From positions 1-50,511 of the forward strand of contig MEOF01000063.1 in NCBI GenBank assembly GCA_001769505.1: a stretch of DNA of 50,511 bases, given 5' to 3'. Shown in pieces: positions 22,114 to 27,104 of this stretch. Every line of letters starts with the position of its first letter. Position 1 is the first letter of the stretch. The notes below the pieces were generated by a model. It was given only the letters and a program-made list of their open reading frames with translations. It searched no databases and had not been told where the DNA came from. Origin of the DNA: Bacteroidetes bacterium GWF2_33_38. GTDB taxonomy: Bacteria; Bacteroidota; Bacteroidia; Bacteroidales; GWF2-33-38. The position numbers were made by a program, and so were the translations under genes.

Positions 22114-22142
22114 AAATGCCGACTGTAAAAGTCGGCATTTTT
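22114..22142 (+). terminator. rho-independent terminator of pnp
   Basis: Perfect 10-bp stem AAATGCCGAC / GTCGGCATTT with a 7-nt loop, 3 bp after the pnp stop and followed by T-rich DNA. Confidence 0.8.
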
Positions 22143-22202: not shown

Positions 22203-23678
22203 ATGCTATTCGTAAATAGTTCTTCGTTTTTTCGTAAATTATCCAAAAGAATAATACTTCTATTCTTTTTAGTATTATTCTTTTCTAATGTTTTTTTTTC
22301 GCAAAATTCTTCATTCGATTCTACTCAAATTTTACACGCCAAACTCAAAAAACATATTTCGGAAGGGTTACAATTTTTAGAAAAAACTCAACGAAAACAA
22401 ACAATTCACGATTCAATTTATTCGGGAGAATGGCAAACTTTGATGTGTTTGCGAAATTCGTTTTTGTTGCTTGGTCATAAACGTGATATTGAAGATTCAA
22501 ACTGTTTTTCGGTGGCTTCAACGCATAATTTTTTAGCTCGAATTTATTTGAATTATCCTGAATATCGTAACATTCAGCCAATATTAGATTTGTCGTTTCA
22601 ACGAATTTTAGCTTATAGAAATGGTAATTATTTCAATTTTTGGAATTTGTTACTTCCGTTTCGTGATTTGAAAAAAAACGATTCGCTTTGGACAAAAACA
22701 TTGGTTCGTCGTCCAACAAATTACTATCTCGGAAACCGATATATTCACAACGCAGCAAATATTGTTGACGATGCCGACGATTCTTCAATGTCTTTTACAG
22801 CAATGCTTTTGCGAAAAAAAATCTTAAATCGTGATAGCATTTCGAGTTCATTTTTGACTGATTCAATTCAACTTTCATCTGTTTTTTCAAATTATAGAGA
22901 TTTGAATCGAAAAAATCGACATTGGTATAATTATGTGTTTGGAAATGACCATAATACAGGAGCTTTTGTAACTTGGCTTGGAAACGAATATCAATTTAAA
23001 CATTGGAATATTGTTTCGGTTTTAGGACATAATGCAACTTTTTTTCTTCCGTTTAGCGAATGTTTTCCACATCCTTATGTTCCATATATTCCTTACGGAA
23101 GCAATGATTTGGACGCGGTTGTGAATTCAAATATTTTAACCGCTTTGTCGTATAAAAACGAATTAAATGCCGAAGGAGCGAGCGATGCAATAAAATACAT
23201 CGAGAAGAAAACTGAAAAACGAAATTATAATAGAGTTGGATTTTATTATCCAAATAGATTTCATTTTGCATATTCGGTTTCGCAAAGTTACGCTTCAGGA
23301 GTTGCTGATTTAGAACAAAGTACAAAAAATATTTTGAAATTTGTTTTGCGAAAACAACTCGAAAATGGAAGTTGGAAGGCAAGGAGAGTGTTGAACAAAC
23401 ATGATAGAATTCAATCAACCGCTTATGCTCTGAATGCATTGATTTATATGGGAAATTTCGAAAAAAATCAAACAAAAATTCCAATTGAAAAAGGATTAAA
23501 TTATTTATTTCAAAATGCAACTTTTGATGAAAATGGTTGTCATTGGAAAGGTGGTGTGTTTTTTTCAGGTGGAACAGTTGTTCGCAACACACTAACTTGG
23601 AAATCGGATGCTTACACAACTGCATTAATTTTGAATGCTTTTGCAAACTATGCGAAATATATCGAACAAAAATATTAA
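22203..23678 (+). CDS. secreted alpha/alpha-toroid (prenyltransferase/squalene-cyclase-like) protein
   Basis: A 491-residue protein with a basic N-terminus and hydrophobic segment (signal peptide, about 1-34, ending FFSQ). The mature chain is helical with repeat units like those of prenyltransferase/squalene-oxidase repeats: KQLENGSWKAR at 384-394, then RIQSTAYALNAL (402-413) and KSDAYTTALILNAF (467-480). A DxDD motif is present at 190-193 (VDDADDSSMSFTAML), as in class II terpene cyclases, and NDLDAVVNSN at 301-310 occupies a similar place in another unit. Export argues against a classical terpene cyclase, so a glycan- or protein-binding toroid is also possible. It is followed by a propeller-like gene in the same transcript. 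Confidence 0.7.
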   Translation: MLFVNSSSFFRKLSKRIILLFFLVLFFSNVFFSQNSSFDSTQILHAKLKKHISEGLQFLEKTQRKQTIHDSIYSGEWQTLMCLRNSFLLLGHKRDIEDSNCFSVASTHNFLARIYLNYPEYRNIQPILDLSFQRILAYRNGNYFNFWNLLLPFRDLKKNDSLWTKTLVRRPTNYYLGNRYIHNAANIVDDADDSSMSFTAMLLRKKILNRDSISSSFLTDSIQLSSVFSNYRDLNRKNRHWYNYVFGNDHNTGAFVTWLGNEYQFKHWNIVSVLGHNATFFLPFSECFPHPYVPYIPYGSNDLDAVVNSNILTALSYKNELNAEGASDAIKYIEKKTEKRNYNRVGFYYPNRFHFAYSVSQSYASGVADLEQSTKNILKFVLRKQLENGSWKARRVLNKHDRIQSTAYALNALIYMGNFEKNQTKIPIEKGLNYLFQNATFDENGCHWKGGVFFSGGTVVRNTLTWKSDAYTTALILNAFANYAKYIEQKY

Positions 23679-23696
23679 ATTGCGAAAAATTTTGAT

Positions 23697-24668
23697 TTGA
23701 AAACTTGTCTTAAAATATTCTTTTTTCTTTTGATTTGCTCAAATGCTTTTGGACAAAAAATCCAAACTATTTTGGATGGCAATAAGTCTGATAGCAGTTT
23801 TTATCATTTAACAAAAATTTCTGACAACGAATTTTGGCTTGGTGGGAAATTTGGAATTATAAGCAAAATAGATTCTCTAGGCAAAATTACTTCGCTTAAT
23901 TTACCAACCGAAGGTTTGAATATTTTAAAGATTGAACGACTCGAAAATTATATATTTATTGCCACTGATAATGCTGTAATTTTTAGATATAATATTGAAA
24001 CAAAGGAATTTATTCGTAAAAAATTTGAAGATTTTGAAAATCGTTGTTTTTACGATATGATTGTTCTTAAAAATGGAAATTTATTGCTTTGTGGCGGAAC
24101 AAGTGGAATTGCAGTTGCTGAGAAAAAAATTCCTCACGGTTTTATTGCCACCGTTGATAAAAATTTGACCGAAATTAATATTGTTTGGAAATGTTGGCGA
24201 AAATTTGTTTGGTCGGCTTTTGAATCAGAAAACGGTGATGTTTTTGCAACAACATTCAATCGATATAACTCTAAAATTTTAAAATCTTCAAATTTAAATA
24301 ATTGGAAATCAGAACATAAAGTAAAAGGTTTGGTTCACGAAATTTCAAAATTTGGTTCTAATATTTTATACTGTGGCACAAAAAATATACATTACAACGA
24401 AACAGGGATTTTGGGAATTCTTGGAGTTGGAATCGAAGCATCTGATATACTTGAAAAAGCTGGTTGTTTATGGAGTTCGCAAGATTCTGAAAATGAAATC
24501 CTTGCTGTTTCTCAATCTGGCGAACTAATTAGATTTATTAAAAATTCAACTATAATTAATCGTATTTCAATAAAACCAAACTTCGCTCTTTACGATATTG
24601 AACAAATTTCTAAATCGAAATACATGATTATTGGGCAGGGAAAATGCATATTTATTACAGAAATATAA
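23697..24668 (+). CDS. secreted beta-propeller-like protein, TTG start
   Basis: A 323-residue exported protein of unknown function. The signal peptide KTCLKIFFFLLICSNAFG is preceded by TTG, the only plausible start codon; no in-frame ATG lies between the upstream stop and this point. The mature part is built of short repeated strands with motifs such as FWLGGKFGIISKID, NGNLLLCGGTSG, ESENGDVFATTF and NEILAVSQSGELI, fitting a WD40/YVTN-type or sortilin-like propeller. The frame is the same as that of the preceding toroid gene (its TAA is at 23676-23678), and only 18 bp separate the genes. The two are presumably co-expressed and may act together outside the cytoplasm. It ends convergent with the RND gene. 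Confidence 0.65.
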   Translation: MKTCLKIFFFLLICSNAFGQKIQTILDGNKSDSSFYHLTKISDNEFWLGGKFGIISKIDSLGKITSLNLPTEGLNILKIERLENYIFIATDNAVIFRYNIETKEFIRKKFEDFENRCFYDMIVLKNGNLLLCGGTSGIAVAEKKIPHGFIATVDKNLTEINIVWKCWRKFVWSAFESENGDVFATTFNRYNSKILKSSNLNNWKSEHKVKGLVHEISKFGSNILYCGTKNIHYNETGILGILGVGIEASDILEKAGCLWSSQDSENEILAVSQSGELIRFIKNSTIINRISIKPNFALYDIEQISKSKYMIIGQGKCIFITEI

Positions 24669-24689: not shown

Positions 24690-27104
24690 TTAGTTCAAAA
24701 GTGTTTCTACGTCCTCGTCATCAACCGAATCTTCACTTTCGTAAATATCAAGTACTTGAGGCATTTCCTCAATCACTTTTCGGGTTAATAGTCTATCGAA
24801 AGTAATTAACAACGACGGAAGAACCACAATATTGAAAAGTAAAGCAATAAATAAAGAAATAGAAATCAGCATACCCAATGCTTGAGTTCCTCCAAATTCA
24901 GAAACCATATAAACACCAAAACCAAGAACCAACACCAATGAAGAGAATATCATGCTAATTCCAGACTCATTCATTGCTATAATTACTGCTGATTTTATTC
25001 CTATTGTTTTGTTTTTGCGTATTTCATGTCTATATCTAGATAAATATAAAATTGCATTATCGATTGAAATTCCTAATGCAACAGTAAAAATGATTAATGT
25101 TGATGGTTTTAGCGGAATATTTCCAAAGCCCATAATAGCCGCTGTAACAATTAGAGGAATTAAATTACAAATCAACGCAATTATTACCATGCTAAAAGAA
25201 GTGAAAACTAAAGCCATAATAACTGAGATTACGATAATTCCAAGAATTACACTTTCTAATAAATTATCAATCAAAAAATCGGTCCCCTTAGCGTAAACTA
25301 CGCTGTTTCCTGTAAGTTCTACATCAAAATCGGTATTACTAAACAATGAATCAACCTGAGGTTTAATTATTGTTTGAAGTACATCCATTCGTTTTGAACC
25401 AACGTCTGCCATTTGAAAACTAATACGTGTGTATTGTCCGGTGCTATCAACAAATGAGCGAAGTAAATTCTTTTTAGAATTGTCTTTTTGAGGCAAATAA
25501 GAAAAAATATAATTTTTTTCACCCTCGTTTGGAATCGAATATTTTTTTGGATTACCATTATAATAAGTCTGTTTAGCAAATTTTATTACTTCTGCAATCG
25601 AAATAGGTTTCGAAAATTCAGGATTCTTCAAAATAATATTTTGCAAAGAATCAATTCTTTTGATAGTTGAAATTTTATAAACTCCTTTTTTCTTCTTGGT
25701 ATCGATCGAAACTTCAAACGGCATAACTCCATTGAAGTTATGCTCGAAAAATTTTAAATCTATATAAATCGGATTCGATTCAGCAACATCATCAACCAAT
25801 TTTCCAGATGTTTTTAATAAGGTCATTCCATAAATGCATATGGCAAGCCCTGCAACTACTACAATATAAATTCGTGTTCGGTAGTTAAGAATCACATAAC
25901 TTATTTTATCAATGATGAAATTTACAGATTTATTATCTAAGTTTTTTAGATGTTTTTTACTTGGTACCGACAAGTATGAAAAAATGATTGGAATTAGAAT
26001 AATTGACAATACATATTCAATCATGACTGTTAAAAAAGCAAGCATTCCAAATTCGCGAAGCATTGTATTTGATACAAAAACAAATGCACCAAAACCTACG
26101 GCTGTTGTAAAATTTGTTATAAAAGTAGCAGAGCCAATTCTAATCATCATTCGGTATAATGCTTTGGCTTGATTTCCATGTTCATTAAATTCCCAATGAT
26201 ACTTATTTACAAGATAAATACAATTTTCAATAGCAATAATCATCAATAAAGACGGTAAAACCCCGGTCAAAATTGTTATTTTATAGCCCATTGCCCCAAT
26301 TAAACCAAATGTTATGGTTAAAACAACCGCAATTAAAATAGATGATGCAAAAATAACTTTAAACGAACGGAACAATAAAATTAAAACTACGATTGAAATA
26401 ATCAACGAAATAATAATAAATATAACTAATTCACTTTGAACCATTTTAGTTATAACGGTACGAATATATGGCAATCCAGAATAGTGTAACTCAATATTGT
26501 TTGTTTTTCCAAATCTATCAAGAGTTTCTTGAACGTTTTCTACAATTGCAATTCTATCCTTATTGTTCACTTTCGCATCGTCGAATGTTACTGAAATTAC
26601 AAAAGCGTTTTTTTCTTTATTATAAAAAAGACCATCAAAAAAAGCATTCGATTCAATTAGTCTTCGGATGCTATCAATGTCGGCTTGAGTTTTTGCTTCT
26701 CCTTCGAACAATGGTCCAAACACAAATTTTTTGATTGTGGTGTCCTTCTTAACGGTGAATAAATGAGTAATTGATACTACATCACTAATTCCTTCCATTT
26801 TTTTTATGGTGTCGCAATATCGTTTTAACGAATTGTACTTTTCAATATTGTAAATAGAACTGTCGGCAAAACCAATAAACATTGATTTTCCATCTTCGCC
26901 AAAACGATGTTTAAATTCTTTGTATTTTACATAAACGCTATCCGATTCGGGTAACATTCGAGCCAATTCATACGATAGTTGAACTTTTGTAGAGAAAAAA
27001 CCCATTATGGCAGTAAGAGCACCAATTACAAATAATATAGCAACCCTATTTCGTAAGATTGTTCTCACAATCCATTTCCACATATTTCCTAAAAACAACG
27101 ACAT
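24690..27104 (-). CDS. RND/MMPL-family exporter
   Basis: An 804-residue inner-membrane transporter of the RND superfamily (MMPL/HpnN/patched-like, single polypeptide with two repeated halves). There is one N-terminal membrane helix (about 15-35), a periplasmic loop (40-220), a five-to-six-helix block (about 222-375), then a second helix (about 410-428), loop (430-620) and helix block (about 628-775). The block beginning GVLPSLLMIIAIENCIYLV and its counterpart TVALGISIDNAILYLSRYRHE show the repeated motif. Such proteins export lipids, hopanoids or hydrophobic compounds; the cargo here is unknown. An internal ATG at 27083 (MWKWIVRTIL) is an alternative start. It is far shorter than AcrB-type drug pumps. 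Confidence 0.88.
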   Translation of the reverse strand: MSLFLGNMWKWIVRTILRNRVAILFVIGALTAIMGFFSTKVQLSYELARMLPESDSVYVKYKEFKHRFGEDGKSMFIGFADSSIYNIEKYNSLKRYCDTIKKMEGISDVVSITHLFTVKKDTTIKKFVFGPLFEGEAKTQADIDSIRRLIESNAFFDGLFYNKEKNAFVISVTFDDAKVNNKDRIAIVENVQETLDRFGKTNNIELHYSGLPYIRTVITKMVQSELVIFIIISLIISIVVLILLFRSFKVIFASSILIAVVLTITFGLIGAMGYKITILTGVLPSLLMIIAIENCIYLVNKYHWEFNEHGNQAKALYRMMIRIGSATFITNFTTAVGFGAFVFVSNTMLREFGMLAFLTVMIEYVLSIILIPIIFSYLSVPSKKHLKNLDNKSVNFIIDKISYVILNYRTRIYIVVVAGLAICIYGMTLLKTSGKLVDDVAESNPIYIDLKFFEHNFNGVMPFEVSIDTKKKKGVYKISTIKRIDSLQNIILKNPEFSKPISIAEVIKFAKQTYYNGNPKKYSIPNEGEKNYIFSYLPQKDNSKKNLLRSFVDSTGQYTRISFQMADVGSKRMDVLQTIIKPQVDSLFSNTDFDVELTGNSVVYAKGTDFLIDNLLESVILGIIVISVIMALVFTSFSMVIIALICNLIPLIVTAAIMGFGNIPLKPSTLIIFTVALGISIDNAILYLSRYRHEIRKNKTIGIKSAVIIAMNESGISMIFSSLVLVLGFGVYMVSEFGGTQALGMLISISLFIALLFNIVVLPSLLITFDRLLTRKVIEEMPQVLDIYESEDSVDDEDVETLLN

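Follow-up and report, generated by a model that had tools for sequence, protein, structure and literature searches.

To our knowledge, the class II terpene cyclases compared here – squalene-hopene cyclase, oxidosqualene cyclase, merosterolic acid synthase (MstE) and the drimenol synthase of Aquimarina spongiae (AsDMS) – are cytoplasmic or sit at the cytoplasmic face of the membrane. Squalene-hopene cyclases, such as that of Alicyclobacillus acidocaldarius (PDB: 1sqc, 2sqc), are proteins of about 630 amino acids (aa) that have two domains, beta and gamma, and act on a C30 compound. MstE (PDB: 6sbb-6sbg) consists of a single TC-beta domain in 367 aa and is, by its PDB entry titles, a class II cyclase with a non-diphosphate substrate. 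AsDMS (PDB: 9m7d-9m7f) is fused to a HAD phosphatase and uses farnesyl pyrophosphate; passages of its description report that D333 is hydrogen-bonded to Y427, that D331A, D331N, D333N, Y427F and Y426A each lose all activity, and that R378A loses 96% of it while R380A, R425A and R513A raise it (PMC12365925). Part of a further source gives DxDTT as the form of its motif (PMC9128629). Here we analyze a two-gene locus of Bacteroidetes bacterium GWF2_33_38 (contig MEOF01000063.1; the window, i.e. the whole stretch of 50,511 nucleotides). Its first gene encodes a 491-aa protein that fold, motif and sequence place in the class II TC-beta superfamily and that begins with an export-type N-terminus; the second encodes a beta-propeller with the same kind of start. 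The features discussed below are:

22203..23678, + strand: exported monodomain class II terpene-cyclase-like protein, 491 aa (ATG open reading frame; AlphaFold model; family of 44 aligned rows)
22203..22304, + strand: signal-peptide-like N-terminus of this protein, residues ~1-34 (sequence and crude hydrophobicity scan; cleavage site guessed)
22770..22781, + strand: DADD, residues 190-193, putative catalytic acid motif (conservation; alignment with AsDMS D331/D333 and squalene-hopene cyclase DVDD)
23103..23114, + strand: NDLD, residues 301-304, within the family motif P-x-G-x-N-[DN]-x-D-x-V-V-N-A-N (conservation in the 44-row alignment)
23244..23252, + strand: YYP, residues 348-350 (44/44 rows; aligned with AsDMS R425-Y426-Y427-P)
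23697..24668, + strand: exported seven-bladed beta-propeller partner, 323 aa (TTG-start open reading frame; model; fold matches; pairing)

A preliminary description of the locus, made from its letters, had placed both reading frames (491 and 323 aa, both on the + strand) and the DADD at residues 190-193 correctly. It had also claimed terpene-cyclase-like toroid repeats. Pfam gives no credible family for either window protein, and in NCBIfam the 491-aa protein has TIGR01787 alone, a sub-threshold squalene-cyclase match (E 5.4e-4) at residues 373-450. The repeats are thus weak in the single sequence; they are clearer in the family, because SQHop_cyclase_C matches 11 of its 44 members at E <= 0.1 (best 5.8e-6), and because a squalene-hopene cyclase is the top match of the family profile among PDB sequences (E 1.2e-6), with oxidosqualene cyclases, diterpene cyclases and drimenol synthase among the other matches. 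A single-sequence search of 98 relative genomes besides its own gave no match at E <= 0.001, and close relatives were found neither in plasmids nor in viral contigs. Among 393 genomes of the order, three others contain matches at E <= 7.5e-10 (four genes), and G390 has a weaker one (E 3.6e-5). An alignment of five sequences retrieved 47 loci from a GTDB-based contig collection, with hosts in Bacteroidota, Bdellovibrionota, Riflebacteria, Pseudomonadota, Campylobacterota, Elusimicrobiota and others. The 44-row alignment comprises the window protein and 43 of these loci; L070, L079, L083 and L085, which all carry DxDDT, were judged by eye to be a near copy, incomplete or wrongly started and were omitted (the reason for L079 is unrecorded).

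D190 and D192 are identical in all 44 rows; the last residue of the motif, at 193, is Asp in 40 of them, Thr in three (all Bdellovibrionota) and Asn in one. Further residues invariant in 44/44 rows are G75, W77, F146, N186, D233, G253, T257, W258, P297, N301, N308, Y348, Y349, P350, G389 and S468; in the NDLD region, D304 and N310 follow with 43/44 each. The relatives were fetched with two motifs other than DxDD, and the invariance of G253, T257, W258, W466 and S468 is owed partly to these search patterns. Of the QW motifs, which are repeated in squalene-hopene cyclases, the one looked at here is the QW-like stretch Q385-x3-G389, with Q385 in 40/44 rows. An independent whole-profile search in another bacterial family found DADDT in 30/30 loci, of which one has Asp in place of N186 and one YYS in place of YYP. 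The preliminary description had asked whether some homologues lack the motif. None was seen, and a coincidental DADD is rejected on the D-x-D of 44/44 rows together with the DADDT of 30/30 loci sampled independently of any motif.

The AlphaFold model computed from the 44-row alignment (mean predicted local distance difference test score, pLDDT, 89.3; predicted template modelling score 0.89) is mainly helical and contains a single alpha6-alpha6 barrel, which starts at about residue 37, after the signal-like residues 1-36. Helices starting at 191, 305 and 469 directly follow D190, D304 and S468, and the DADD caps helix 191-210 of the barrel. We infer from the alignments with known cyclases that the motif probably faces the cavity, and the surface position which the preliminary description had named as a contrary outcome was not seen. 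Foldseek matches were re-scored in a second look, and terpene-cyclase-type entries make up 32 of the first 33 rows (Z 23.3-31.7; 6ij1 is counted among them by its molecule name, 'Prenylcyclase'). The best match is the TC-beta domain of AsDMS (9m7f: Z 31.7, root-mean-square deviation 2.5 over 299 residues, 17% identity), besides two short enzymes from bacteria that are entered under squalene-hopene cyclase (Z 30.6-30.9), MstE (29.6, at 12-13% identity), the A. acidocaldarius squalene-hopene cyclase (28.6), drimenyl diphosphate synthase (27.8) and oxidosqualene cyclase (26.0). Sugar-active toroids of the GH88, GH105, polysaccharide lyase (PL) and cellobiose 2-epimerase kind reach Z 22-23.4, 23.4 being the best among the matches listed, which places them below the terpene cyclases. 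The alpha/alpha toroid of complement C3 is also among the matches. A viral fold library gave, besides noise, one toroid resembling a glucuronyl hydrolase and one protein without a name. Two identities were rejected: that of a two-domain squalene-hopene cyclase, on the single barrel, and that of a HAD-TC-beta drimenol synthase, on the signal-like residues 1-36 in place of the HAD domain.

In the profile alignment to AsDMS (whole-sequence E 2.7e-4), N-x-P-x-D-x-D-[DT]-T falls on N-F-P-D-D331-L-D333-T-T of AsDMS (7.3 bits) and YYP on R425-Y426-Y427-P (15.2 bits). Because the 9m7d chain carries D333N, D190/D192 can be equated with D331/D333 and Y348-Y349 with Y426-Y427, so that all four catalytic residues have a counterpart. 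The D-x-D-T variant of the three Bdellovibrionota members is the AsDMS-type DxDTT form. The DVDD of squalene-hopene cyclase stands in the same register as the DADD, with N-x-Y-Y-P-D-V-D-D-T-A against N-x-P-x-D-A-D-D-T here, in a segment that is weak (-0.5 bits). On this alignment, D192 is the putative proton donor and Y349 its putative partner. The arginines of AsDMS are less clearly kept. Position 347, opposite R425, is non-basic in 43/44 rows and His in one; this loss says little, because R425A raised the activity of AsDMS. If D304 equals D382, R378 falls on position 300 (non-basic in 37/44) and R380 on position 302 (non-basic in 44/44); an alternative first profile segment sets the conserved R236 (43/44) on R378. 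R513 falls outside the aligned positions. The sequences suggest that a diphosphate site may be absent in the family. Prenyl diphosphates are cytoplasmic, and since the head-group arginines are not clearly kept either, a soluble prenyl diphosphate is an improbable substrate.

A sister family of 319-381 aa (L037, L038, L039, L041), two members of which belong to the window's class and two occur elsewhere in the phylum, shares DxDDT or DxDNT, the D-x-D-x-V-V-N-A motif and the Tyr. In hhalign the two families match with probability 99.8 (E 2.8e-30), and DxDD falls on DxDD, NDVDxVVNAN on NDVDxVVNAN and the catalytic Tyr on Tyr. The Pfam squalene-cyclase cut-off is exceeded by one of the two sister members scanned. 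According to the tree, which is midpoint-rooted and comes with a long-branch warning, the sister and the exported family form separate branches (support 100/99), the latter being divided further into two clades, short and long, with 22 rows apiece. L040 is a weaker sister-like match (E 1.1e-8) with, by eye, D-x-D-C. In L039 (1129-3133) the DxDDT/DxDNT sister gene lies beside a sulfotransferase-family gene (sub-threshold Pfam match); in L038 (157-3017) the neighbors are what we take to be membrane prenyltransferase-like and glycosyltransferase-like genes, and in L041 (77-1992) presumably a radical-SAM/SPASM-like gene. The sister proteins of L038, L039 and L041 (319-347 aa) resemble monodomain cyclases, as yet uncharacterised, that belong to biosynthetic clusters.

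Both window proteins begin with a charged and then a hydrophobic stretch, in agreement with the export claimed for them earlier; in the 491-aa protein the N-terminus is made up of RKLSKR, a hydrophobic core and FFSQ. A hydrophobic 10-mer with a mean hydropathy of at least 2.3, starting by residue 35, is present in 40/44 rows (the exceptions are L059, L064, L080 and L082). By the same criterion, one of the four sister sequences has a signal-peptide-like start and the other three have none. The scan is crude (no SignalP) and its cut-off was picked after the scores had been seen: a laxer first cut-off passed 44/44 rows but also 3/4 sister sequences, hence the stricter reading. Lipoprotein-type Cys sites are present in a number of distant members, L062 and L065 with their VTAC among them. 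AsDMS carries an N-terminal HAD domain, which the 491-aa protein with its signal-like start lacks. A putative cell-surface protein of Corynebacterium glutamicum (WP_011013715.1), to which part of one source ascribes prenyltransferase/squalene oxidase toroid repeats (PMC12021427), is likened to the present family by description only.

The second gene agrees with the propeller-like repeats that had been noted. Its model (pLDDT 84.9) has 28 strands in a seven-blade wheel, seven-bladed propellers match it at Z 28.5-30, and two of four partner proteins scanned give sub-threshold BNR/Sortilin matches in Pfam. The propeller gene adjoins the cyclase gene in the window, in 7/47 loci (L042, L043, L044, L049, L050, L054, L056) and in G582 (L036). 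The two genes stand in tandem in the window's clade and elsewhere tail to tail, with ends almost touching or overlapping; this comparison includes some genomes fetched twice, e.g. as L056 and L152. In 200 genomes of the family of G582, at E <= 1e-20 for the cyclase and E <= 1e-5 for the propeller, the cyclase occurs in 28, the propeller in 26 and the two together in 24 (cyclase only: G793, G807, G824, G826; propeller only: G903, G912). The genes are adjacent in 16 of these 24 genomes and apart in eight. The hypergeometric p for co-occurrence is 1e-24 by genome, with kinship ignored, and 1.4e-5 by genus: all six propeller genera fall among the eight cyclase genera, out of 36. Conservation of the pair, for which the preliminary description had asked, is borne out within part of Bacteroidota and was seen nowhere beyond that part; for the long clade and the Bdellovibrionota, a search of the gene neighborhoods, as distinct from whole genomes, gave no partner. 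The pair may be a periplasmic enzyme/binding system, as had been proposed, with a propeller that might retain the substrate or bring the enzyme into place. A cyclase-propeller neighborhood of a different kind occurs in L090 (352-3512), where a squalene-hopene-cyclase-like gene (652 aa) overlaps an exported-looking propeller gene, PQQ/BamB-like by eye, by 4 base pairs (bp).

The gap between the stop codon of the cyclase gene and the propeller gene of the window is 18 bp. Upstream of the pair lies a gene that, as read from its sequence, we take to be polynucleotide-phosphorylase-like, followed by one further feature:

22114..22140, + strand: terminator-like stem-loop, 3' of the upstream gene (consensus scan, weak)

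This stem-loop suggests that the pair forms its own transcription unit; the consensus scan found two stem-loops where 1.4 were expected and is weak for that reason. Tail to tail with the propeller gene, at 24690-27104 of the window, is an MMPL-family permease gene with Patched and sterol-sensing-domain matches, and neighbor clustering showed no recurrence of its cluster at other loci. Def-like and amidase-like genes flank the propeller in several related loci, and in five loci of three genera (L144, L146, L148, L151, L156) a GH3-family gene (Pfam on L144) directly precedes the cyclase. In L074, L078 and L087 the cyclase-like gene is immediately preceded, or overlapped, by the end of a long ankyrin-repeat gene.

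We hold, with moderate confidence, that the 491-aa protein is a secreted single-domain class II-type cyclase which acts on a hydrophobic, probably isoprenoid substrate. According to this model, the protein would be exported across the inner membrane and its alpha6-alpha6 barrel would bind a linear, probably isoprenoid, hydrophobic substrate. D192, polarised and held by Y349 and backed by D190, would protonate a terminal double bond or a similar group, and the cation would be quenched through ring closure or water. In part of Bacteroidota, the co-exported seven-bladed propeller would work with the enzyme. The export-type N-terminus, both folds, the conserved motif and the co-occurrence rest on computation; catalysis, the roles given to the acid and the Tyr, the substrate and what the propeller does are inferred. 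As to the substrate, our guess is that it may be an envelope lipid (the undecaprenyl carrier or a menaquinone tail) or an environmental terpenoid.

The host genomes restrict this choice. PF13243, PF13249 and PF00494 are all without a match in the window's genome, which is 99% complete; because the squalene/phytoene synthase and squalene-hopene cyclase families are absent, host-made squalene is unlikely there. PF00494 was searched at E <= 1e-10 in 31 of 48 possible hosts, most of them draft assemblies with completeness stated for the window's genome only: 16/31 have it and 15/31, the window's own included, do not. Squalene or carotenoid as the general substrate was dropped on this count. The split is not random, as PF00494 is present in 10/10 searched hosts of L042-L053, the nearest relatives of the window protein, and missing from the window's genome as well as from most hosts at a greater distance; for these nearest relatives a C30/C40 substrate therefore stays possible. 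Polyprenyl substrates are unaffected by the absences, because the window's genome has two polyprenyl synthases. The undecaprenyl carrier lipid is expected in all host envelopes, and menaquinone in many.

The neighboring genes give divergent hints. Besides the propeller, the clusters that recur in at least four loci are an ankyrin protein and a mixed signalling cluster, neither of them a guide to function. In four genomes of genus g392 (L143, L145, L147, L160), an MlaE-type permease, an ABC ATPase and an extra cyclase copy stand in line on one strand, with about 14-23 bp between ATPase and cyclase (Pfam was run on one of the four); this context fits a lipid substrate. A long-clade paralogue in L031 (8359-10119), in turn, has genes for a sodium:solute symporter and an amidohydrolase directly behind it, at gaps of 19 and 3 bp, which fits a sugar substrate. 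The three genes lie within L031:8359-12985; the amidohydrolase (Pfam: Amidohydro_1) we take to be a GlcNAc-6-P deacetylase, and the other cyclase copy of this genome sits among what are presumably CotH-, fucosidase- and hexosaminidase-like genes. Neither the MlaE/ATPase nor the symporter/amidohydrolase context recurs among the 48 first loci.

Several of these observations weigh against an isoprenoid cyclase: the missing synthase and cyclase families in the window's own genome, the roughly half of searched hosts without squalene/phytoene synthase, and the L031 context. To them may be added that no isoprenoid gene recurs among the neighbors examined and that many invariant residues are polar (N186, D233, N301, N308), several at helix starts, beyond the needs of a hydrocarbon pocket. 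Of these facts, the polar residues, the L031 context and the hosts without the synthase speak for an acid-catalytic enzyme on a terpene-cyclase scaffold that now uses D192/Y349 as its general acid on a non-isoprenoid envelope or outside substrate, for instance a glycolipid or a glycan. We regard this as possible, if on the unlikely side, since the sugar context was seen in one genome and no carbohydrate family recurs in the Pfam tally of neighbors. That tally covers 93 of 147 candidates (from L055 and L057-L087/88, a few omitted by eye) with 25 of 80 families listed, and its families with more than one member are mostly shared by near-identical lineages. Moreover, the 27 PDB profile matches at E <= 0.1 include terpene cyclases and no carbohydrate-active toroid; one of the 27, a 52-residue beta-hexosaminidase fragment (E 0.069), is not a toroid.

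A catalytically silent toroid that binds a ligand or protein together with the propeller would account for the co-conserved partner, propellers being typical of binding and scaffolding, and the match to complement C3 illustrates such a non-cyclase use of the fold. It seems improbable to us: 44/44 rows from several phyla preserve both the D-x-D and the YY pair, even where no propeller was found nearby, and a binding protein would have no evident reason for retaining an acid motif. We think it very improbable that the protein is held in the membrane by an uncleaved N-terminal helix and works as an active class II cyclase on the cytoplasmic side. N-terminal cleavage is indeed only predicted and squalene-hopene cyclases are monotopic on the inner face, but the charged residues before the hydrophobic helix predict that the domain lies outside, and the lipoprotein-type Cys sites would place those members outside as well. 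Finally, an unrelated exported alpha/alpha toroid (PL10, GH88/GH105 or cellobiose-epimerase type) with a coincidental DADD is scarcely credible: such toroids are commonly exported and match at Z 22-23 (PL10 itself being outside the comparison), but terpene cyclases score higher, the motif is invariant and in register, and a sister member exceeds the squalene-cyclase cut-off.

What is new is an exported class II-type cyclase family, with a propeller partner in some Bacteroidota; we found no report of an exported class II terpene cyclase in the open-access PubMed Central literature, which is weak evidence of absence. That an exported family has kept the catalytic Asp and Tyr implies that its substrate lies beyond the cytoplasm. 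The usual C30/C40 substrates misfit the hosts without squalene/phytoene synthase; for these hosts the candidates that are left are compounds from outside or the few isoprenoids that are universal in the envelope. Returning to the secreted cyclase, its broadest form is a tentative one that we would rather doubt than expect: in several phyla, proton-initiated cyclisation or hydration of an envelope isoprenoid, for instance the side chain of menaquinone or the undecaprenyl carrier, would take place outside the cytoplasm, carried out by a dedicated secreted TC-beta enzyme that in Bacteroidota would have a propeller partner of its own.

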